Below, in pieces: positions 6,112 to 53,012 of a stretch of DNA of 64,000 nucleotides (within the stretch, counting starts at the first letter, position 1; each line of letters starts with the position of its first letter). Below the pieces are notes generated by a model that saw only the letters and a program-made list of their open reading frames with translations, ran no database searches and was not told where the DNA came from. Location: the NCBI RefSeq assembly GCF_030296055.1, contig NZ_AP027370.1, positions 620,001-684,000 of the forward strand, written 5' to 3'. The translations under genes and the position numbers were made by a program. This stretch comes from Hydrogenimonas cancrithermarum (GTDB lineage: Bacteria > Campylobacterota > Campylobacteria > Campylobacterales > Hydrogenimonadaceae).

Positions 6112-6418
6112 AGCGGAAAAAAATGGAAAAGAGGAGAAAGAGATCAAGCTCTTCGATTTCGAACGGCTTCTCGATATCGAGGTGGAGATCACATCCTATC
6201 TTGGGGAGACGGAACTGACATTGAACGATATTCTCCACCTCAACGTCGGATCGGTCATCGATCTTCAGAAGCCTGCGGGAGAGAGTGTCGAAACCTATGT
6301 CAACGGAAGGATTATCGGAAAAGGGGAAGTGATGGTATACGAACAGAACCTGGCGATCCGAATCAACGAAATTCTCGATGCGGATGCCGTTATCTATTAC
6401 CTTTCGAAAGAGAAGTGA
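6104..6418 (+). CDS. fliN: flagellar motor switch protein FliN
   Basis: A product of 104 residues with a charged N-terminal extension of about 20 residues followed by a SpoA/surface-presentation domain. The key features are LLDIEVEITSYLGETELTL, VGSVIDLQKPAGE, VNGRIIGKGEVMV and the terminal LAIRINEIL. FliN lines the base of the C-ring and helps set rotation direction and export. AAAGGG precedes the ATG. It lies between the CheX-like gene (8-nt overlap) and a FliO-type gene, the arrangement I recall from Campylobacter. Confidence 0.93.
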   Translation: MGEAEKNGKEEKEIKLFDFERLLDIEVEITSYLGETELTLNDILHLNVGSVIDLQKPAGESVETYVNGRIIGKGEVMVYEQNLAIRINEILDADAVIYYLSKEK

Positions 6419-6420
6419 CC

Positions 6421-7296
6421 ATGCGGATCTTTTTACTGATCATTCTTCTCATCCACTCCGCCGTCGGTGCTCTTTTGCTGAACGAAAACCTCTACGAGCG
6501 TAACAACCGTATCGATCTCATGCTTTCGTTCGATACCCCTTTCTCGGGTACTATAAAGAAAAAAAGAGAATCGGACGGAACGATCGATATCCTTCTAAAC
6601 GGAATCGAGGTTCAAAAACCGTTTCGGGAAAATGTTCAAAACAGTTTCGTCGAATCGATCGCACTCATCAAATCGGGCCCGCATACGGCACTGATAAAGA
6701 TCGTTCCTCTGCAGAAGCCTCTTCAAGTCGAGGCATCCAAAACGATCGACGGATTCGGCCTGAGGCTTCGCATAACACCCACAGCCGAATCGTCGAAAAG
6801 TCTCTCCGCTTTGCCGGCCGCAGCGATATCGGATAGGCCCAAAACGGCAAAACCGCTCAACACACTTCAATCTTCACAGACACTTCCCGGTTGGCGATAC
6901 TGGAGTGTTTTGGCCATTCTTTTGCTTCTGCTAATCGTTTTGTGGATCGTCAAAAAACGCAGCACCGGCACACTTTCGGGAAAGAGCGGCTGGCTGATGC
7001 CCAAAGCCGGGCTGCCTGGAAATCTGCCCGAAGAGGCGGTCGTTCGCTATCAAAAAGTACTGGACCCCCACAACAGGCTCCTTCTGCTCGAATTCGGCGG
7101 CAAACAGTATCTGATGGTCGTCGGCAACAGTAACCTGCTTCTCGATACGTTTGTCGAGGGTAAGATCGAAGATGCCGATACATTTTCTCAGATGTTCGAA
7201 GCCAACAAAAAACAGCTCGATAACTTTTTGAAAGAGAACCATCCCGATGCCTACGAAGCGTTCAAAGCCAACGCAAGCAAAGAGGAACACCTCTAA
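6421..7296 (+). CDS. fliO: FliO-type flagellar export protein with large periplasmic domain
   Basis: The 291-residue product has a signal-like hydrophobic N-terminus (MRIFLLIILLIHSAVGALLL) and a beta-rich, presumably periplasmic region of about 140 residues. One transmembrane helix follows near residue 165 (WSVLAILLLLLIVLWIV), then a cytoplasmic domain with LLLLEFGGKQYLMVVGNSNL. That last part is the FliO motif. Campylobacterota FliO proteins are unusual in having the long periplasmic part. FliO helps assemble FliP in the type III export gate. The ATG at 6421 directly follows the fliN stop; a GTG two codons upstream overlaps it. Similarity is from motifs only. Confidence 0.75.
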   Translation: MRIFLLIILLIHSAVGALLLNENLYERNNRIDLMLSFDTPFSGTIKKKRESDGTIDILLNGIEVQKPFRENVQNSFVESIALIKSGPHTALIKIVPLQKPLQVEASKTIDGFGLRLRITPTAESSKSLSALPAAAISDRPKTAKPLNTLQSSQTLPGWRYWSVLAILLLLLIVLWIVKKRSTGTLSGKSGWLMPKAGLPGNLPEEAVVRYQKVLDPHNRLLLLEFGGKQYLMVVGNSNLLLDTFVEGKIEDADTFSQMFEANKKQLDNFLKENHPDAYEAFKANASKEEHL

Positions 7297-9694: not shown

Positions 9695-9762
9695 ACCCTA
9701 CTCCTTGATAAAAATTAATGAATTCTATCGAAATTGCCTTAAATTTTTCATTTATACCGCTT

Positions 9763-10221
9763 TTATTTATGGTAGGGATGATTGTGATTGATCGTCAAGG
9801 CCCGATAGATCTGCTCGAAAAGTACCACTTTGGCGATCTTATGACTCATCGTCAGCTTGGATAGACTGACGACTTTATCGCATTTTTGCAGGAACTCCCT
9901 GCCATGCCCGTAAGCTCCACCGATAAAAAAAGTCGCTTCGGACTTGTCGGCGATCAGTCCGGCGAACTCTTCGCTTGGCATCTCTTTTGCCGAAGGGTCC
10001 AGGGCGATCGTATAGCCGCGTTCCATCCATGGAGAAAAAAGCTCCGCATAGAGTTTCCGGGCAGGATCTTTTCCGCTCTCCTGCGCTCTTGTGACTTTTG
10101 CATTGAAGAGATCGTTTTCGGTCACGACAGCGTAACGTTTCGACATTTTTATAAAATGGTCACAAAGTTCCGAATAACAGTCCCGCTCGGGTTTTGCGAT
10201 CGCGACGACATTAATCTTCAT
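9763..10221 (-). CDS. rlmH: 23S rRNA (pseudouridine-1915-N3) methyltransferase RlmH
   Basis: A 152-residue SPOUT-class methyltransferase. It starts [19 protein letters not shown], has the SAM-binding knot region [13 protein letters not shown] (~residue 105) and ends with the conserved [25 protein letters not shown] motif. RlmH methylates a pseudouridine in helix 69 of 23S rRNA at the subunit interface. A much longer in-frame reading upstream exists but overlaps the thiE-like gene; the ATG at 10221 matches the family length. It overlaps the end of the thiE-like gene by 11 nt. Confidence 0.92.
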   Translation of the reverse strand: [152 protein letters not shown]

Positions 10222-10777
10222 AAAGCGCACTCCCGACCACCAGCCATGTGACATTGGGAAGATAGTCGTCAAGCCGTACACCGCCGATGGCGGCGACCGG
10301 ATGGCGTGAAGAGGCGGCCATTTCCGAAATCTTTTCGCATCCGAGAACGTTGGCGTCGCTTTTGGTGGAGGTGGTGCGGCATGCGCCAAGCCCGATATAG
10401 TCGAGCTCGAGTCGATTGGCGGTTGCAATCTCCTCTTCGTTATGGGTCGAAAGGCCGATCCATCGGTTTTGGCCGAGGATCTCTCTCAATGTTGCGACCG
10501 CCTCTTTCGGGTTGGCGCCATAACGCCGTAGATCTTCCTGTCCAATATGCACACCTTCGCACAAATAGGCCAGTTCGGGATGATCGTTGACGATCAATCT
10601 TCCGTCAAAAAGAGAGGCGATGGTGCGCAGCCGTTTCTCGATCGATCCGATATCGCCCGACTTGTTACGATACTGAATGATATCGGCTCCTGCTGCAATC
10701 GCACGCCGAACAAAACGTTCGACGCTCCAACCGTGCGCCTGCAACGAACTTTCATCCAAAAGCGCGTAAACTCTCAC
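10211..10777 (-). CDS. thiamine-phosphate synthase/TenI-like protein
   Basis: A 188-residue TIM-barrel protein of the ThiE/TenI type. Visible are [10 protein letters not shown] (~residue 35), [19 protein letters not shown] (~65), [10 protein letters not shown] (~110), [13 protein letters not shown] (~130) and AIGGV (~165). ThiE joins the pyrimidine and thiazole moieties to make thiamine phosphate; TenI-like relatives aromatise the thiazole. The phosphate-binding TTSTK segment is present, but the sequence is shorter than typical ThiE (~210), so a TenI role is possible. The GTG start overlaps the accD stop (GTGA). Confidence 0.72.
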
Positions 10778-11622
10778 GCACCTTCTTTATTGAAGAGTTT
10801 GAGCAGATTTCCAACCGTCTCTTTCAGAATGCGCCGGGGAACCACTTTGTCGATGAGCCCGTGTTCGAGAAGAAATTCGGAACGCTGGAATCCTTCCGGA
10901 AGATCGGCACCGATCGTCTGTTTGATGACACGCTGTCCCGCAAAACCGATCAGAGCATCGGGTTCAGCGATGATGACATCACCGAGCATGGCGAATGATG
11001 CCGAGACACCACCCATCGTAGGATCGGTCAAAATCGAGATAAAGGGAAGTTTCGCATCGTCGAGCTTCGCCAGCGCAGCACTCGTTTTCGCCATCTGCAT
11101 CAGCGAATAGGTACTCTCCTGCATTCTCGCCCCACCGCTTGCACTCACGATAACGACACCACACTTTTTTTCAAGCGCACGATTGACGGCACGGACGATC
11201 TTCTCTCCCTCGACGGAACCGAGGCTGCCGCCCATAAAGGCAAAATCGAAAACGACAAGTTCGGCCGGTTCATTCTCGATTCTGCATGAACCGCTTACCA
11301 CGGAAGAGGTGCGGCCCGTCTTCTTTTTCGCATCTTCGAGACGTTTTTTATAACTCTTTTTATCGACAAATTTCAGAGGATCGACCGGCTCGAGCTCTGC
11401 ATCGTGCTCGATAAAGCTATCCTCGTCTGCCAGGAGTTTGATTCGCTGGTCCGCCGAAAGGCGCATATGATAACCGCATTTTGGGCAGACATAATGGTTC
11501 GCTTCGATCTCTTTGTAGTACATCAGTGCATGACATTTGGGACATTTGATCCAGTGGGCCGGTGCTTCGGTCGGTTTGGGGTGTTCTCTGCGTATACTTT
11601 TGAAAATATTGCCAAAATTCAT
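10774..11622 (-). CDS. accD: acetyl-CoA carboxylase carboxyltransferase subunit beta
   Basis: A 282-residue AccD. It has an N-terminal C4 zinc ribbon (CPKC at ~24 and CPKC at ~43) followed by the crotonase-like carboxyltransferase domain with [17 protein letters not shown] (~130), [11 protein letters not shown] (~160), [16 protein letters not shown] (~200) and GFAGQRVI. With AccA it transfers CO2 from biotin to acetyl-CoA, the first step of fatty-acid synthesis. The start overlaps the stop of the upstream IMPase-family gene (ATGA), and the stop overlaps the thiE-like start. Confidence 0.96.
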
Positions 11623-46414: not shown

Positions 46415-47458
46415 CTACAGTGTGTTCATTTCAATATTGTCGAAATTTCGACGGTAGTATTGCATATAGAGAACCTTCTTTTCGAGCGCTTCTATGACCG
46501 TCTGGCTAAAATCCACATCTTTGAAAAGATGGGCGTGATGCAGCCCTCCGGGACTGAATACATTGATCTCGAGTAGCTTGTCGCCAACGATGTCGAGCCC
46601 CACCAGAAACATGCCGTCCTGGACAAGTTTCGGACGGACGATCTCCGCGATCCTCAACATTTCATCGGTCACCTCCACCGCTGCCGCCCGCCCACCGGCA
46701 TGGATATTCGACCGGATATCCTTTTCGGCGGGAATTCTCCTGAAAGCGCAATAGCGTCCATTCGACTGCAAAGGGGCCCCGTTCATCAGAAACAAGCGTA
46801 CATCACCGTTGAGGGCTTCCGGCAGAAACGCTTCGGCGATGGCATACCCGTCGCGAAAGACGGCATCGGCCATCTGGTGAAGGTTGGCCGCATCGGTAGG
46901 TTGCACGAAAAAGACATTGCGCCCTGCCGAACCCATCAGCGGTTTGATAATGATGTTGCGGTCGTGCGCTTCGTAAAAACGCTCGATCTCGGACACATTT
47001 CTTGCGATCACCTTTTCGACACGTACCTCTTTCGGAAAATGTTGAAAATACATCTTGTTGATCGCTTTTGAAAGCCCGTCCGGATCGTTGAGAACGATCA
47101 CACCATGCCGCAGTGCAGTGCGTCCGAAGACGATCGCCGCATGCTGGGCCCATGAGGATTGAATATCCTGGGCCGGATCGTTGCGAAGCATCAAAATATC
47201 GAGATCATCTACCGTGATCCGTTTCTGTATTGCATCATCCGCACAGAGCGCCCCGTAATAACTCTTCTGATCCGAATAGTTTCCGGTTTCGACACTTCTG
47301 GCATGGGCATGAACCATCTCATCACAGTTGTAGACGAAATCACCCACACCCATCAGCCAGACTTCATGGCCCATCTTCGTCGCCGTCAATGCCAGCTGGA
47401 TCGTGGAGCTAGGCAAGGGCTCGTGAAGAAGGTCGTTAATGACAAATCCGATTTTCAT
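46415..47458 (-). CDS. glutathione-synthetase-like ATP-grasp ligase
   Basis: A 347-residue protein with the GshB layout: N-terminal Rossmann part MKIGFVINDLLHEPLPSSTI with LMLRNDPAQD (~90), ATP-grasp loop IIIKPLMGSAGRNVFFVQ (~170), and SNIHAGGRAAAVEVT with the metal/ATP site VGLDIVGDKLLEINVFSPGG (~295). GshB joins gamma-glutamylcysteine and glycine. Here no gshA is nearby, and the gene is the last of a cluster with a QEGLA peptidase and formylglutamate amidohydrolase, so another amide-forming reaction is likely. The ATG overlaps the stop of the QEGLA gene (ATGA). Confidence 0.85.
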   Translation of the reverse strand: MKIGFVINDLLHEPLPSSTIQLALTATKMGHEVWLMGVGDFVYNCDEMVHAHARSVETGNYSDQKSYYGALCADDAIQKRITVDDLDILMLRNDPAQDIQSSWAQHAAIVFGRTALRHGVIVLNDPDGLSKAINKMYFQHFPKEVRVEKVIARNVSEIERFYEAHDRNIIIKPLMGSAGRNVFFVQPTDAANLHQMADAVFRDGYAIAEAFLPEALNGDVRLFLMNGAPLQSNGRYCAFRRIPAEKDIRSNIHAGGRAAAVEVTDEMLRIAEIVRPKLVQDGMFLVGLDIVGDKLLEINVFSPGGLHHAHLFKDVDFSQTVIEALEKKVLYMQYYRRNFDNIEMNTL

Positions 47459-49362
47459 ATGTATCCTTTTTCGATCAAATCCAGAATACTCAGTCTCTTA
47501 TTCCGTATCTCTTCAAGTCTCGCTTTTGCGGACTTTTCGTCAAGCCAGCGCGGCCAGAGCGGCGGTTTTTTCAAAATCTCTCTCCACTGTAGCTCTTCGA
47601 TCAGAGGGATGTGTTCGGCCGCGATCTTCCCGACAAACAGAGGCTCCAACGCACCGCCATCGTGCAGATAGTCGAACAGTCCGACCAACCCGCGCAGATA
47701 GACCGCATCTTTCGTCAGCCCGCCCCCTCTGAAGACACGTGTCGTGATCGTGAAGGCGCTCTTCTCGCCAAATCGGTAGCGTTCATGCAGCTGCCGAAAC
47801 GTCTCCTCGAAAGAGCTTCCTTCACAAAGCATATGCACGGCGACCACCCGTGCCGCCAGAATTCTTAGGCGCGCTTTGCTGATACCTCCGCTGAGATATT
47901 CGGAGAGAACGGCAATCCCCTCCTGCATCTCGTCATAACCGCTGAGCCCCGTATGGAGCTGTTTGAAAGGCTGAGCGAGGCCGTTCGTGTAGGTCAGGAT
48001 ATGGGTGCCGATCTCGTGATGAAGCAGTGCTTCGACTCTCTTTTTGGGAAAATGTGCCCATTTGGAGATGAAGAAGTCTCCACCGGAGACCATCGCACCG
48101 GAGACGATATCTTCACGAATCTGCACAGAAGAACGCATCGACGGATAGAACGTTTTGTAGTATGCGATCTCGTCATTCGCATACTCGGCAAACGTTTCGG
48201 CATCCACGGTATCTGTTTCGGCATCGGCTTCGAGATTCCGCTGTTCATGGGGAAGATGTTCGAGCATCGTTTCCGCTGTTTCAAGCAGCGCGCTTTCGAC
48301 CTTTCCGTAGGCGGGAATGCTTCCATAGAGAAAATTCGGTGTGTCGCGGTCTGAAAGCATCGTCAATTTACGATCGAGCTCTTCACGCTTCTGGCAGAAA
48401 AGCTCCATCAGTGTCGGATCTTCGATCTTTCCGATGGGAATGTCGTAGAGCGCACGTTTCATCTGCGGAATGTCGAAGGGCCTGGGCCGGTAGAGGAAAT
48501 GGGGCGTTCCCGTATATCCTTTCGCTTTGAAGCTCTCCCATGCCTCCTCCGTATTGACAGGGGTGACCTGCAGAAGAAAGTCGAACGCATCGTCGATTTC
48601 GGCCAAGGCGTTGTCCACATCCCAAACGACTTTCGTGACAAGCCGCCGTCCCATCATTGCATAGTGGGTGGGACAGCTACCGGTCAATGCCACGGAAAAG
48701 CGGTAAAAGGCGTTTTTAAGCGCTTTCGCAACCCCCTTTCGGATTCCTTCGAGTTCGATAGGATAGAGTGTCTCGCCCGTCTCGTCCTGATAGGCGGGTG
48801 CGACGCCGAGTCCGAGGAGATAGGTATTGCAGCGTTGCAATACATCTTTTTCCAAAAGCGGAGGAAGCGCTGCGGGGGCGACGCTTTCACAACGCGCAAT
48901 CTGCACATGGGCGCGAAGCCGGTGAAGCGTGACCCTTTTCAGCCAGTTCCGAAGTGTTTCGACGGTGGAAAGGAGTTCCTCCGGCTGATCCGAACAAATC
49001 CTGAACGCCGGTGACCGCTTCGTTTTTGTTTCATCGCAAAAGGCTTCGTACGGCAGCGTCCAGAGCTCGACGATCAAAAAATGTCCAAAGATTTTCGACA
49101 TGGTTTCGGCAACGGCTTCGAGCAAGGAGGTGACATTCTCGCCTCCCAAAACCGTCAGATAGGAAGCCTCGCCATAGACGAGACGTTCGGTACCCACATC
49201 CGCCTTCTCTTTCGGCTTTCGGTAGACGCAAAGAAATGGAAGCTGCCGGTCGATATGAATTCGACCGCCGCCGGGAAGTTTTTTTCTGACAGCCCGATTG
49301 GCCTGAAGATCCGCCGTTACACTCTCGATGAAATCTTGACCGATTTCCGCCGGTCCGTTCAT
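47455..49362 (-). CDS. DUF1704/QEGLA-motif zinc carboxypeptidase
   Basis: A 635-residue protein. The C-terminal half holds the DUF1704 metallopeptidase core: HHEIGTHILTYTNG (~445, an HExxxH zinc motif), then SGYDEMQEGIAVLSEYLSG (~475), the QEGLA-type motif that supplies a further zinc ligand. Bacterial members are annotated as flavohemoglobin expression modulators; eukaryotic relatives remove C-terminal tyrosine from tubulin. The N-terminal 300 residues are helical and less conserved. Substrate unknown. ATG at 49362 is chosen because it overlaps the upstream stop (ATGA) and a longer reading lies inside the neighbour. Confidence 0.88.
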   Translation of the reverse strand: MNGPAEIGQDFIESVTADLQANRAVRKKLPGGGRIHIDRQLPFLCVYRKPKEKADVGTERLVYGEASYLTVLGGENVTSLLEAVAETMSKIFGHFLIVELWTLPYEAFCDETKTKRSPAFRICSDQPEELLSTVETLRNWLKRVTLHRLRAHVQIARCESVAPAALPPLLEKDVLQRCNTYLLGLGVAPAYQDETGETLYPIELEGIRKGVAKALKNAFYRFSVALTGSCPTHYAMMGRRLVTKVVWDVDNALAEIDDAFDFLLQVTPVNTEEAWESFKAKGYTGTPHFLYRPRPFDIPQMKRALYDIPIGKIEDPTLMELFCQKREELDRKLTMLSDRDTPNFLYGSIPAYGKVESALLETAETMLEHLPHEQRNLEADAETDTVDAETFAEYANDEIAYYKTFYPSMRSSVQIREDIVSGAMVSGGDFFISKWAHFPKKRVEALLHHEIGTHILTYTNGLAQPFKQLHTGLSGYDEMQEGIAVLSEYLSGGISKARLRILAARVVAVHMLCEGSSFEETFRQLHERYRFGEKSAFTITTRVFRGGGLTKDAVYLRGLVGLFDYLHDGGALEPLFVGKIAAEHIPLIEELQWREILKKPPLWPRWLDEKSAKARLEEIRNKRLSILDLIEKGYI

Positions 49363-50204
49363 AGCTTCACCCCCATCTTTTTCAATGAGGACTCGATACC
49401 CGGCATGGCGGACTTCAGAAGGGTATGGATTTTTTCGACCTGCAGAAGATCGATATGCCCGCTCCACTCATCCATGAAAATTTTTTTGATTTCGATCGAA
49501 AGTACACATCCCGACTCTTTGAAATTGCGGTGAATCCATTCGGCCATATAGCCTCCCTGGAACTTGACGTTTTCACGCACATCCAGCGTTCGGCCGAAAT
49601 AGTCGAACCTCTGCAAATCGCTCATAAACGTTTCGATGAGCGGTTCCCAGAGCGTCCGGTCTGAAAGCGTTGCGGTTCCGACATTGATATCGGGATTCAT
49701 CCGCGGATCTTCCGGTGGGGCATCGGGCCCCTTCCGCCGATGGTTGTAGCTGTGCAGATCCAGAACGACGAAAAATCCATGTCTCTCTTTCAGCTCCGAC
49801 AAAAATTCGTAAAGCTCTTCGTAAAAGAGATCGTAGAGCCCCAATGCATGCGCGATCATCTTGTCGTTCGGCAGGCACTTCCACACATCGAGCCCCCATG
49901 CATCCTCGGGCTTCAGATAGACCGCCTTCTCCCGGGGCCTGTTCAGATCGACAAGAAAACGGGAAGCCGAAACCGTCAGGCGGTTGTCCGCGATCGACGT
50001 CATACGATAGGTACACGGATCCTCCTCACGAAGCCGCGTCGCTTCGTCGATCGCGATAAATGCGGCGACTTCTTCCGATAAATCGTGCCCGTCATGAATC
50101 GCGGCCGCGACGATCGGGCCTTCTGCCCGGCATATCGTCCACTGCCGCCGGCTCATCGAAAATTTCCGGGCAATCGACTCCGGATCGCAAATCGGCTTAT
50201 CCAT
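49359..50204 (-). CDS. N-formylglutamate amidohydrolase family protein
   Basis: A 281-residue member of the FGase family, a zinc hydrolase fold. Visible are IVAAAIHDGHDLSEEVAAFI (~residue 30), a DLHSYNHRRKGP motif (~145) and a GGYMAEWIHR segment (~225). FGases cleave N-formyl or N-acyl glutamate in histidine breakdown, but no hut genes are here. The gene lies between a pseudo-ArsC gene and the QEGLA peptidase with 1- and 4-nt overlaps. ATG at 50204 (TGATG overlap) has AGGAGG just upstream. Confidence 0.87.
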   Translation of the reverse strand: MDKPICDPESIARKFSMSRRQWTICRAEGPIVAAAIHDGHDLSEEVAAFIAIDEATRLREEDPCTYRMTSIADNRLTVSASRFLVDLNRPREKAVYLKPEDAWGLDVWKCLPNDKMIAHALGLYDLFYEELYEFLSELKERHGFFVVLDLHSYNHRRKGPDAPPEDPRMNPDINVGTATLSDRTLWEPLIETFMSDLQRFDYFGRTLDVRENVKFQGGYMAEWIHRNFKESGCVLSIEIKKIFMDEWSGHIDLLQVEKIHTLLKSAMPGIESSLKKMGVKL

Positions 50205-50620
50205 CACTCCTCCTCACAAAGTTCCTCCTCGATTCGAGGCAGAAGAAGTCGTTTGAGTTGGTGGATCGTCCGCTCGTACGCTTCGAAAGGCTTTCCGTCG
50301 GGATCCTCGAAACCGATATGGATCACCTTTCTCGCACCTGGTAAGACTGGACACGCCTCTTTGAGGTTGTCGCATACAGTTACCACCAGGTCGAAATCGC
50401 TACGCTTCAAATCATCCAGACTCTTCGACCACAAATGCTCGGTTTCGATTCCGTCTTCCGCCAACACCTGTATCGTTTCGTGATCGATACTCCCTTTCGG
50501 AACGATACCGGCACTCTCGGCATGCAGGTTACACGAACGTTTCAGATGGTGGTTGACCAGTGCCTCGGCCATAATGGAGCGGGCCGCATTGCCCATATCC
50601 AATATCAAAATTCTCTTCAT
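50204..50620 (-). CDS. ArsC/low-MW phosphatase paralogue with lost catalytic cysteine
   Basis: A 138-residue protein of the thioredoxin-type ArsC/LMW-phosphatase fold, closely similar to the ArsC encoded 1.7 kb upstream. The P-loop that should read CTGNSCRS reads DMGNAARS: the nucleophile is Asp, and the second Cys is Ala, while Arg is kept. The later TVCDNLKEACPVLPG and GFEDPDGKPFEAYE blocks are intact. It should not be able to reduce arsenate or hydrolyse phosphotyrosine by the usual route and may bind a ligand. It is coupled to the FGase gene and has its own -10 element. Confidence 0.82.
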   Translation of the reverse strand: MKRILILDMGNAARSIMAEALVNHHLKRSCNLHAESAGIVPKGSIDHETIQVLAEDGIETEHLWSKSLDDLKRSDFDLVVTVCDNLKEACPVLPGARKVIHIGFEDPDGKPFEAYERTIHQLKRLLLPRIEEELCEEE

Positions 50621-50644
50621 CGATTCACTTCTTTTTTTCTTCAT

Positions 50645-50650
50645 ATCATA
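50645..50650 (-). promoter_or_regulatory. possible -10 element for the pseudo-ArsC/FGase/QEGLA/GshB cluster (TATGAT)
   Basis: TATGAT on the minus strand lies 24 nt before the ATG at 50620, preceded by an A/T-rich tract (TTTTTTAAAAC). The 116-nt gap after arsB suggests the cluster can be transcribed apart from the ars genes. Confidence 0.45.
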
Positions 50651-50769
50651 CACTGATAAAGTTTTAAAAAAGATTTTTATGGTGAAATCGAAGAGTTTTC
50701 GTCATAAAGTCATACAGAGTAACGGGGAGAGGAAGCGATCGGCACCGATAGAGGAGAGAAAGGATCGCC

Positions 50770-52023
50770 TCATATCAGTCCCAAAAGTGCTACGAGGAGT
50801 ACCGGTGGCGTCACGACAAGCCCGACCTTCATATAGTCGCCCCATCCTATCTTCACACCTTTTTTGGCCAGCACATGCAGCCAAAGCAGCGTCGCGAGCG
50901 ACCCGATCGGCGTCATCTTGGGTCCGAGGTTGCAGCCAAGGATGTTGGCGTAGGCCAAAAAGGTGTCACCCGTCTTCTCGATCGCGATATCCATTACCAT
51001 GATCGTCGGCATGTTGTTCATGACGGAACTCAAAAGCGCCGACAAAAAGCCCGTCCCGATTATATAGGTTTCATGCCCGTACGTTTTGAATAGTAGCAGC
51101 CATTCGGCGATCCGATCGGTCAGGCCCGCGTTTTTAAGCCCGAAAACGACGACATAGAGGCCGATGCTGAACCAGACGACCTGCCAGGGCGCCGTTTTGA
51201 TCGTCATGATCGGTTTGGTCGCTTTGAATCGCGCAGCGATCCAGAGGAAAAGGAGTGCACCGCCGAGTGCGAAGAACGAAACCGGCACATGATAGAGATC
51301 GCCGATGAAGTAGCCTAGCAAAAGCAGCCCCAGAAACCACCAGCTCACCTTGAACATCACCTGGTTTTTGATGACGCTCGAGGCTTCCGGAAGCGTGTCG
51401 ATATCGACACGCGTGGGAATCGACTTCCTGAAAAAGAGCCAAAGCACGACGATCGACGCTGCGATCGACAAGAGGTTGGGCAGAAACATCGCTTTGAGAT
51501 ATTCCCAGAAACCGATACCGAAATAGTCGGCTGTGACGATGTTGGTGAGGTTGGAGATCACGAGCGGATTGGAAGCACTGTCACCAATGAAACCACCCGC
51601 CAGCAGAAAGGCGAAGATCGCTTTGGGGTCCATCTGCAGATACCGCATTTTCGCCAGCAGAATCGGCGTGAGAATCAGTGCCGCGCCGTCGTTCGCGAAA
51701 AAAGCAGCCACCAATGCTCCCAGTAGCAGGATGTTGACGAACATCAGATGCCCACTGCCGCGGCTGAGTCTGGCCATCTTCACCGCCGCCCATTCGAAAA
51801 AGCCGATCTCGTCGAGTACCATCGAAAGCAGAATGATTCCGATGAATGCCAGCGTCGCATCCCATACGATGGAAGTGACCGTGACGACATCGCCGACCGT
51901 AACGACACCGAGTAAAAGTGCGACGACGGCACCGGCTACCGCACTCGTTCCGATCTGCAGGCCACGGGGCTGCCAAATGACAAGTACAAGTGTGACGATA
52001 AAAATCGAAACAGCCGGCAGCAT
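50770..52023 (-). CDS. arsB: arsenite efflux permease ArsB
   Basis: A 417-residue polytopic membrane protein of the ArsB/NhaD superfamily with about eleven hydrophobic helices. The conserved blocks are ALVAAFFANDGAALILTPIL (~110), FIGDSASNPLVISNLTNIVT (~145), LSSVMNNMPTIMVMDIAIEK (~335) and LGCNLGPKMTPIGSLATLLW (~370). It expels arsenite and antimonite using the proton gradient or with ArsA. It follows the small Cys protein by 1 nt in the ars operon. Confidence 0.95.
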   Translation of the reverse strand: MLPAVSIFIVTLVLVIWQPRGLQIGTSAVAGAVVALLLGVVTVGDVVTVTSIVWDATLAFIGIILLSMVLDEIGFFEWAAVKMARLSRGSGHLMFVNILLLGALVAAFFANDGAALILTPILLAKMRYLQMDPKAIFAFLLAGGFIGDSASNPLVISNLTNIVTADYFGIGFWEYLKAMFLPNLLSIAASIVVLWLFFRKSIPTRVDIDTLPEASSVIKNQVMFKVSWWFLGLLLLGYFIGDLYHVPVSFFALGGALLFLWIAARFKATKPIMTIKTAPWQVVWFSIGLYVVVFGLKNAGLTDRIAEWLLLFKTYGHETYIIGTGFLSALLSSVMNNMPTIMVMDIAIEKTGDTFLAYANILGCNLGPKMTPIGSLATLLWLHVLAKKGVKIGWGDYMKVGLVVTPPVLLVALLGLI

Positions 52024-52024
52024 G

Positions 52025-52282
52025 TTACGGGTTCAATACTTTGGAGCGTGCCAGTGCCGCTTCGATCTCCTCTTTGGCGATATCGCCGGTGAGCTCCAGC
52101 TCGACGGCACCGTCTTCACCCCTGACTTCCATGTTCCGGATCTTCTTCTTCGTCGCATCGCTCATACATTCGCACTGTCCCGTCGCACAGTTTTCGACCA
52201 TTTTGACGATATTTTCCTTTTTCACTTCGCCCGTAAAGGCGATTTTGACACCCTTTTGTGTCCTGTTCACAATCTTGTTCAT
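52025..52282 (-). CDS. small duplicated cysteine-bearing protein in the ars operon
   Basis: An 85-residue protein with an internal repeat: GVKIAFTGEVKKENIVKMV (~11-29) and AVELELTGDIAKEEIEAAL (~59-77) share the pattern V-x-[IL]-x-[FL]-TG-[ED]-[VI]-x-K-E-x-I. The linker between them holds ENCATGQCECMS, three cysteines in C-x4-C-x-C spacing. It overlaps the arsC stop (ATGA) and ends 1 nt before arsB. An arsenic-binding or delivery role is my inference; it does not resemble ArsD or ArsA. Confidence 0.75.
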   Translation of the reverse strand: MNKIVNRTQKGVKIAFTGEVKKENIVKMVENCATGQCECMSDATKKKIRNMEVRGEDGAVELELTGDIAKEEIEAALARSKVLNP

Positions 52283-52692
52283 CCGTTTAATTCCTTTTCA
52301 ATGATTGGCAATAGTTGCTGTTTGATCAGATTCTTCGTTTCGACAAACGCATCGTAGGGTTTGCCGTCGGGGTCTTCGAAACCGACATGAATCGTTTTGA
52401 CGCCCCCGGGAAACACCGGGCAACTCTCTTTGGCGTTGTCGCATACCGTCACGACCAGGTCGAAAGGCCCCGCTTTCATCGCCTCGTCGATCGTTTTGGA
52501 CCGGTAACGATCGTCCCACGCGCCCTCTTCTTCGAGCACCTTTTTTGCGTTCGGGTTGACCCGTCCACTGGGATCGCTCCCGGCACTGCAGGCTTGAACC
52601 CCTTTGAATCCGAGGTATCGGTTCACCAGCGCTTCGCCGATGATCGAACGGCAGCTGTTGCCGGTACACAAAATCAACACCTTTTTCATCAT
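52279..52692 (-). CDS. arsC: arsenate reductase, thioredoxin-coupled ArsC
   Basis: A 137-residue enzyme that reduces arsenate to arsenite. The P-loop CTGNSCRSIIGEALVNRY (~8-25) has the nucleophilic Cys8 and Arg14, VTVCDNAKESCPVFPGG (~80) supplies the resolving cysteines, and GFEDPDGKPYDAF follows (~100). It is the thioredoxin-coupled type. The ATG at 52692 overlaps the arsR stop (ATGA) and has CGGAG upstream; a longer in-frame reading runs through arsR and is rejected. Confidence 0.95.
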   Translation of the reverse strand: MMKKVLILCTGNSCRSIIGEALVNRYLGFKGVQACSAGSDPSGRVNPNAKKVLEEEGAWDDRYRSKTIDEAMKAGPFDLVVTVCDNAKESCPVFPGGVKTIHVGFEDPDGKPYDAFVETKNLIKQQLLPIIEKELNG

Positions 52693-53012
52693 GAACACGC
52701 TCCGGAAATTTTTTTCAATTCGGGAAGGTCGATCGGCAACGTTCGAATCTCTTCGAGTGTCTCCTGCCTGAACCTGTCGATCGGCGATCGGATCGCATAG
52801 TATGTCCATCGCCCGCACCGATCCGCTTTCAGGAAACCGGCATCTTTGAGAATCTTCAAATGGCGTGACAGTCGCGACTGGATCATCCCGAACGACGCCT
52901 CGAGATCACAGACACACAACGGCCCATGCATGTCGATGAACTTCAGGAGTTTCACGCGCGTCTCGTCATAGAGTGCACCGACGCTCTTTAAAAAATCTTC
53001 TATCGCTTCCAT
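52689..53012 (-). CDS. arsR: ArsR-family arsenite-responsive repressor
   Basis: A 107-residue winged-helix regulator. The metalloid site is in LCVCDLEASFGM (~31-42, Cys-x-Cys in helix 3), the recognition helix is QSRLSRHLKILKDAGFL (~45-61), and a wing follows (RCGRWTYYAI). A further Cys occurs near the end (SGACS). It should leave its operator when it binds As(III) or Sb(III). GGAGG lies before the ATG. It is the first gene of the operon, 38 nt downstream of a 32-bp palindrome overlapping its promoter. Confidence 0.94.
   Translation of the reverse strand: MEAIEDFLKSVGALYDETRVKLLKFIDMHGPLCVCDLEASFGMIQSRLSRHLKILKDAGFLKADRCGRWTYYAIRSPIDRFRQETLEEIRTLPIDLPELKKISGACS

Follow-up and report, generated by a model that had tools for sequence, protein, structure and literature searches.

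Protein tails can be edited by enzymes of three superfamilies: the ATP-grasp ligases TTL/TTLL, the M14 carboxypeptidase CCP and MATCAP act on tubulin tails, and RimK edits ribosomal protein S6. In animals, relatives of MATCAP cleave off terminal residues that neighbour Glu, as well as Glu (PMC10499314). Here, we analyzed a 64,000-nucleotide stretch of the 2.38-Mb genome of Hydrogenimonas cancrithermarum (contig NZ_AP027370.1, positions 620,001 to 684,000; hereafter the window). Four adjacent minus-strand open reading frames (ORFs; 46415-50653) encode an ArsC-like protein (pseudo-ArsC, psArsC), a formylglutamate amidohydrolase-family hydrolase (FGase), a QEGLA protein with a MATCAP peptidase domain and a GshB-like ligase. 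A first-pass annotation had grouped all four genes as one unit, which is only partly right. The functional unit is the FGase-QEGLA-GshB triplet, an operon kept as a block across many phyla. The three enzyme families keep their order across genomes; the fourth gene, psArsC, is not associated with them outside the genus.

The FGase-QEGLA-GshB order is common to Campylobacterota, Aquificota, Planctomycetota, Actinomycetota, Acidobacteriota and Alphaproteobacteria (at least six phyla). A three-enzyme order that recurs across phyla is therefore not due to chance, and the combination of one ligase with two hydrolases, proposed from the window sequence, stands as a conserved unit. Single-family profile searches, on which all genome-wide statements rest, detected MATCAP in 12, FGase in 13 and both in 11 of 150 genomes of the host's order. 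Nine of the 11 MATCAP genomes besides the host carry FGase-QEGLA-GshB in order; among these 11, a Thiovulum genome (G079) has GshB followed by an FGase-MATCAP fusion. In the remaining genome, G149, a divergent QEGLA relative lacking the HExxxH motif (L024:2003-3730) lies on a short contig without FGase or GshB homologues.

A QEGLA-alignment scan of 84,980 species genomes yielded 38 loci in Campylobacterota, Hydrogenothermaceae, Planctomycetes, Actinomycetota, Acidobacteria, Belliella and Rhizobiales. Since the scan was built on two conserved motifs, it sampled the nearest QEGLA subfamily alone. A GshB-like gene adjoins QEGLA in 37 of the 38 loci; at the exception (L044), tblastn gave no match in the last 0.75 kb of the contig. 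FGase lies directly upstream of QEGLA in 25 loci and is fused to it in one, and three contigs (L030, L038, L045) are cut or duplicated at the FGase side. The contig of a metagenome-assembled bacterium (L038:2-4301) carries the tandem QEGLA-GshB-QEGLA-GshB. Across the loci, the triplet genes mostly join by overlaps of 4 nt. For 24 taxa, the pairwise distance matrices of the three families were strongly correlated (0.943-0.948, permutation p ≤0.0002), with the genomes' shared descent still contained in these values. Rhizobial plasmids, including a megaplasmid of Sinorhizobium meliloti, bear the same annotated triplet. Natural FGase-MATCAP fusions occur in Thiovulum and on a Vibrio plasmid (L059:4945-6951, L068:7599-9590). 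No QEGLA relative was found on viral contigs.

The QEGLA protein matches PF08014 (MATCAP; 9.5e-98, 327.9 against a cut-off of 27) and TIGR02421 (360.9 bits against 338.65). Its HExxxH motif and a downstream Glu (H449, E450, H454, E481) are invariant in 32 sequences, and in a structural model (pLDDT 91.0) the C-terminal domain matches human MATCAP (7z5g). The N-terminus aligned with FGase by hhalign (probability 94, E 1.5e-7; four control comparisons ≤0.7), and a Foldseek search with the QEGLA model also returned, weakly, the N-formylglutamate amidohydrolase structure 2q7s (E 7e-3). Within this N-domain a metal-ligand His corresponds to Trp101 in the window; of all sequences, only the Thiovulum fusion retains this His. 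By alignment and model, the QEGLA N-terminus is thus a degenerate, dead FGase-like domain. It is missing from the short QEGLAs of actinobacteria and acidobacteria. For the NCBI product name, "flavohemoglobin expression-modulating", no source was found in the literature searched.

FGase itself matches PF05013 (8e-21, 75.6 against a cut-off of 28.9), and residues H37, H40, E60, E61, H151 and E238 are invariant in 20 sequences. Its AlphaFold2 model (pLDDT 88.7) matches 2q7s and 2odf, followed by poly-gamma-glutamate hydrolases (3a9l, 5onj) and M14 carboxypeptidases. It is the only PF05013 gene of the host genome. No NCBIfam match was obtained for FGase, and none of the neighbouring genes inspected was a hut gene; no genome-wide search for hut was made. 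Within that scope, the earlier judgement that a histidine role is unlikely was supported. In Belliella, where no FGase adjoins QEGLA, a gene of the succinylglutamate desuccinylase/aspartoacylase family (L047:12879-13871) lies convergent just past the ligase gene, possibly as a functional replacement of FGase.

The ligase matches both GshB domains in Pfam (GSH-S_ATP, 4.9e-48; GSH-S_N, 1.2e-11) and E. coli GshB (1gsa) by phmmer (2.2e-36). It belongs to the PRK12458 subfamily (NF009110, 416.6 bits against a cut-off of 408) and scores below the TIGR01380 GshB equivalog cut-off (197.3 against 299.05 bits). In the alignment it keeps the equivalents of the catalytic and arginine residues K125, K160, R210, R225, R233, D273, E281 and N283 of GshB. 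Thr288 of GshB is replaced by Gly in every ligase homologue aligned. No match to the gshA families PF04262 or PF04107 was found in the host genome (PF08886 was not searched); genome G103 shows a clear GCS2 gene. These searches agree with the initial view that a glutathione role is unlikely, and canonical glutathione synthesis was rejected because the ligase falls below the GshB cut-off and no such gshA was found. The idea that the gene set marks genomes without gshA fails, as a GCS2-family gene is present in 9 of the 15 genomes from other phyla that bear the module, rhizobia included (6 have none); the module is therefore independent of gshA.

We then considered psArsC, the gene that sets the window apart from triplets elsewhere. 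The protein matches LMWPc in Pfam (3e-19) and scores 61.8 bits against an ArsC cut-off of 215. Comparison of its P-loop (LDMGNAARS) with that of the neighbouring ordinary ArsC (LCTGNSCRS) indicates that the nucleophilic Cys is replaced by Asp. This Cys of the CX5R loop is Asp in the window copy and in the readable P-loops of four relatives, and is kept in genome G195. A psArsC profile delimited a tight clade (240-291 bits, against ≤144 for other LMWPc matches in 399 genomes) that is confined to seven genomes, all Hydrogenimonas, five of them with the triplet. No ArsC-family gene was found in 32 scanned loci outside the genus. In G003, which has no MATCAP in its genome, and on the 5-kb contig of G195, where no triplet is visible, psArsC lies just upstream of arsR-arsC. 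In G067 the triplet sits between psArsC and arsR, a gap of only ~50 bp in G003. The genus-restricted clade and the occurrence beside arsR-arsC without the triplet place psArsC in the ars locus and not in the module.

P-loops within the genus differ stepwise, from CTGNSARS in G195 (L104:1035-1451) through DTGNAARS in G003 (L103:7282-7695) to DMGNAARS in the window. With dN/dS values of 0.06-0.14, psArsC is under purifying selection, which rules out a decaying pseudogene. The simplest story told by these sequences would be that an ars-locus paralogue lost its nucleophile stepwise under purifying selection; psArsC is a dead but conserved enzyme that belongs with the ars locus and is not a conserved partner of the module.

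The dead ArsC had been proposed as a binding partner of the enzymes, and a model in which all four proteins act together would draw on the overlapping genes of the window, on the conservation of psArsC under purifying selection and on its presence in five of seven sampled Hydrogenimonas genomes with MATCAP. However, psArsC was not found outside the genus, its copies in G003 and on the short G195 contig stand beside arsR-arsC without a visible triplet, and three genomes have a small membrane gene (DUF4282, 1.4e-15) between it and FGase. We consider the four-protein model very improbable, and a general role of psArsC as binding partner of the enzymes is not supported. The DUF4282 gene lies at L022 ~10423-10800, L017 ~9760-10150 and L023 ~6176-6480, and is missing in the window and in G129.

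The ars genes adjoin the triplet in at least four Hydrogenimonas genomes and, among the loci examined, only in this genus, by which a general arsenic role of the triplet was rejected. Together with the GshB-like ligase, this neighbourhood would suit a low-molecular-weight thiol response, in which the ligase would supply a glutathione-like thiol to the adjoining ars genes. This is improbable, given the lack of PF04262 and PF04107 matches in the host genome, the absence of ArsC-family genes from the 32 loci outside the genus and the GCS2-family genes of triplet-bearing rhizobia; moreover, no cysteine-handling gene recurs beside the triplet.

The features of the locus are listed below. On the sequence, the description of four minus-strand genes with 1- or 4-nt overlaps is accurate: the psArsC stop and the FGase ATG overlap by 1 nt (TGATG, 50204), and the FGase/QEGLA and QEGLA/GshB junctions by 4 nt each (ATGA). 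The overlapping junctions therefore place the QEGLA start best at 49362, not at the longest-ORF start (49467). All four family assignments were reproduced by Pfam (LMWPc, FGase, MATCAP, and GSH-S_ATP with GSH-S_N). The TATGAT element ascribed to the cluster is present; a consensus scan scored no -35/-10 pair there, and the best-scoring promoter site of the region was 53063-53035, upstream of arsR. An 85-aa protein encoded between arsC and arsB contains a CxC motif (QCECM) and has a conserved copy at L104:2321-2578. Anti-phage defence was rejected, as PADLOC matched neither the four proteins nor the 85-aa one. Upstream of the locus, a LapD-like GGDEF/EAL protein is encoded in L020, L021, L022, L023 and L103 (e.g. 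L022:12219-14144), accompanied in some of these genomes by a large adhesin-like gene; both probably reflect chromosomal synteny.

Table. Positions of the triplet, psArsC and neighbouring ars genes within the window
Feature	Position	Strand	Basis
GshB-like ATP-grasp ligase, PRK12458 subfamily, 347 aa	46415..47458	-	NF009110 above cut-off; catalytic residues kept
QEGLA protein, 635 aa, dead N-terminal FGase-like domain and MATCAP zinc peptidase domain	47455..49362	-	TIGR02421; model matches 7z5g
HHEIGTH zinc motif of MATCAP domain	48001..48021	-	H449, E450, H454, E481 invariant
Degenerate FGase-like domain of QEGLA, ~residues 20-230, boundaries approximate	48673..49305	-	hhalign
FGase-family zinc amidohydrolase, 281 aa	49359..50204	-	PF05013; invariant metal-site residues
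psArsC, catalytically dead LMWPc/ArsC paralogue	50204..50614	-	DMGNAARS P-loop; genus-restricted clade
TATGAT, -10-like element	50645..50650	-	present in sequence; no scored -35 partner
arsB	50770-52023	-	Pfam/NCBIfam match
85-aa protein between arsC and arsB	52025-52282	-	no Pfam or NCBIfam family match
arsC, ordinary ArsC	52279-52689	-	Pfam/NCBIfam match
arsR	52689-53012	-	Pfam/NCBIfam match

Upstream of FGase, the motif GGAAC-N16-19-TT was found in 17 of 21 rhizobial loci, compared with a background of 5.9% in random 300-bp stretches. Among the 17, L114 is mis-anchored; two loci represent a single species, and the count is inflated by relatedness. This EcfG/RpoE2-type motif is in line with EcfG sites from the literature, given as GGAAC-N16-CGTT (PMC3892343) and GGAAC-N17-20-GTT (PMC6599016). 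Judged from this motif, rhizobial expression of the triplet is probably driven by a general-stress sigma factor. Loci L040 and L041 have Na+/H+ antiporter genes immediately upstream of FGase, and genes of the BrkB, PRC-barrel, DUF892 or DJ-1 families were observed near the module at other loci. In Photobacterium damselae, a QEGLA gene was 27.5-fold up at 1% versus 3% NaCl (PMC10308900).

What the triplet acts on was approached from its ligase pocket and from the relatives of its hydrolases. The GshB-type N-domain, arginines and lid loop of the ligase point to a small enclosed acyl donor, which would resemble a glutamyl dipeptide. The fold neighbours of FGase and the preference of animal MATCAP relatives for tails with Glu beside the terminus (PMC10499314) would point, by structure and analogy, to glutamyl peptides as hydrolase substrates. 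We favour both interpretations and therefore chose a ligase/hydrolase module that is linked to stress and has a small glutamyl peptide as its target, a proposal that we hold to be evenly balanced between right and wrong. In an ATP-driven reaction within a closed GshB-type pocket, the ligase would couple an amino acid to a small carboxylate of the gamma- or alpha-glutamyl type. Both zinc enzymes, the M14-like FGase and the MATCAP carboxypeptidase, would trim, recycle or degrade the glutamyl peptide product, such that all three would share one substrate. The dead FGase-like domain of QEGLA may serve as a dock for the active FGase, the two forming a pseudo-dimer, and the stress role might extend beyond rhizobia.

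Because the tubulin tail code is written and erased by enzymes of these superfamilies, protein-tail editing is the main rival. Here, the ATP-grasp ligase would write amino acids on a protein C-terminus and the two peptidases would erase them. Such editing fits the joint occurrence of these superfamilies in the triplet and the constancy of QEGLA and ligase, the most constant pair; animal MATCAP relatives, moreover, target the acidic tails of proteins and trim chains of glutamate (PMC10499314). Yet the ligase has retained its GshB N-domain together with the lid loop and the substrate arginines, which fits a small enclosed substrate, and no recurrent target gene or small ORF stands beside the triplet. 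We regard tail editing as unlikely. By analogy, a bacterial writer/eraser for peptide or protein tails under stress, with the pseudo-FGase domain as docking half of an FGase/QEGLA complex, appears more doubtful still. Across unrelated genera no further gene or small ORF of any kind recurred beside the triplet, by which a precursor of a ribosomally synthesized and post-translationally modified peptide, or a carrier, was rejected; one five-locus group common to Ensifer and Planctomycetaceae resembled a low-complexity wrong-frame translation.

Several points weigh against the glutamyl-peptide module. Nine of the 38 loci are QEGLA-GshB without an adjacent FGase, and a nearby FGase is therefore not always required. 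Other QEGLA subfamilies stand alone (Pseudoalteromonas) or lack an adjacent ligase, as does the Vibrio FGase fusion. The promoter evidence covers related rhizobia only. Finally, the glutamyl substrate is argued solely from fold neighbours and active-site conservation, and both substrate and product are putative.

In the literature searched, no paper was found that joins these families or describes the triplet as a unit; the operon is apparently unstudied though widely conserved. A fixed order across at least six phyla and the lack of a paper on the unit point to a widespread, overlooked metabolite or modification, behind the misleading annotations glutathione synthase, N-formylglutamate amidohydrolase and "flavohemoglobin expression-modulating" protein. 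New here are the dead FGase-like domain in QEGLA, the FGase-MATCAP fusions and the stress-sigma promoter motifs at rhizobial copies. The value of the finding lies with the triplet and not with the dead ArsC. The megaplasmid copy gives direct experimental access to the module in S. meliloti, a tractable laboratory organism, and what is learnt there would shed light on the ancestral role of those MATCAP peptidases whose substrate in animals is tubulin.

Compared with known systems, each protein departs from its nearest relatives in a distinct way. psArsC is of the same family by sequence as the pI258-type thioredoxin-coupled ArsC (1jf8) and the window copy keeps the CDN...CP motif, whereas Asp takes the place of its nucleophilic Cys and Ala that of the second Cys in the P-loop. 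FGase shares family and fold with N-formylglutamate amidohydrolases (PF05013; 2q7s, 2odf), but has no NCBIfam match and is encoded beside a ligase and a MATCAP peptidase. The ligase shares with GshB (TIGR01380; 1gsa) the two Pfam domains and every catalytic or arginine position that was checked; in contrast to GshB it lies under the equivalog cut-off, in the PRK12458 subfamily, with Thr288 changed to Gly and no gshA found in the genome. QEGLA resembles the tubulin carboxypeptidases MATCAP/TMCP (7z5g, 7z6s) in its domain match (9.5e-98), its structural match (TMt ~0.7) and its HExxxH plus Glu motif, but is bacterial, carries the extra, dead FGase-like N-domain, is encoded with a ligase and has no tubulin target. 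As a set, the triplet differs from the tubulin tail code enzymes in that its ligase is of the GshB and not the TTL type and no linked protein target gene was found; by analogy, it shares with TTL/TTLL, CCP and MATCAP the combination of an ATP-grasp ligase, an M14-like peptidase and a MATCAP peptidase.

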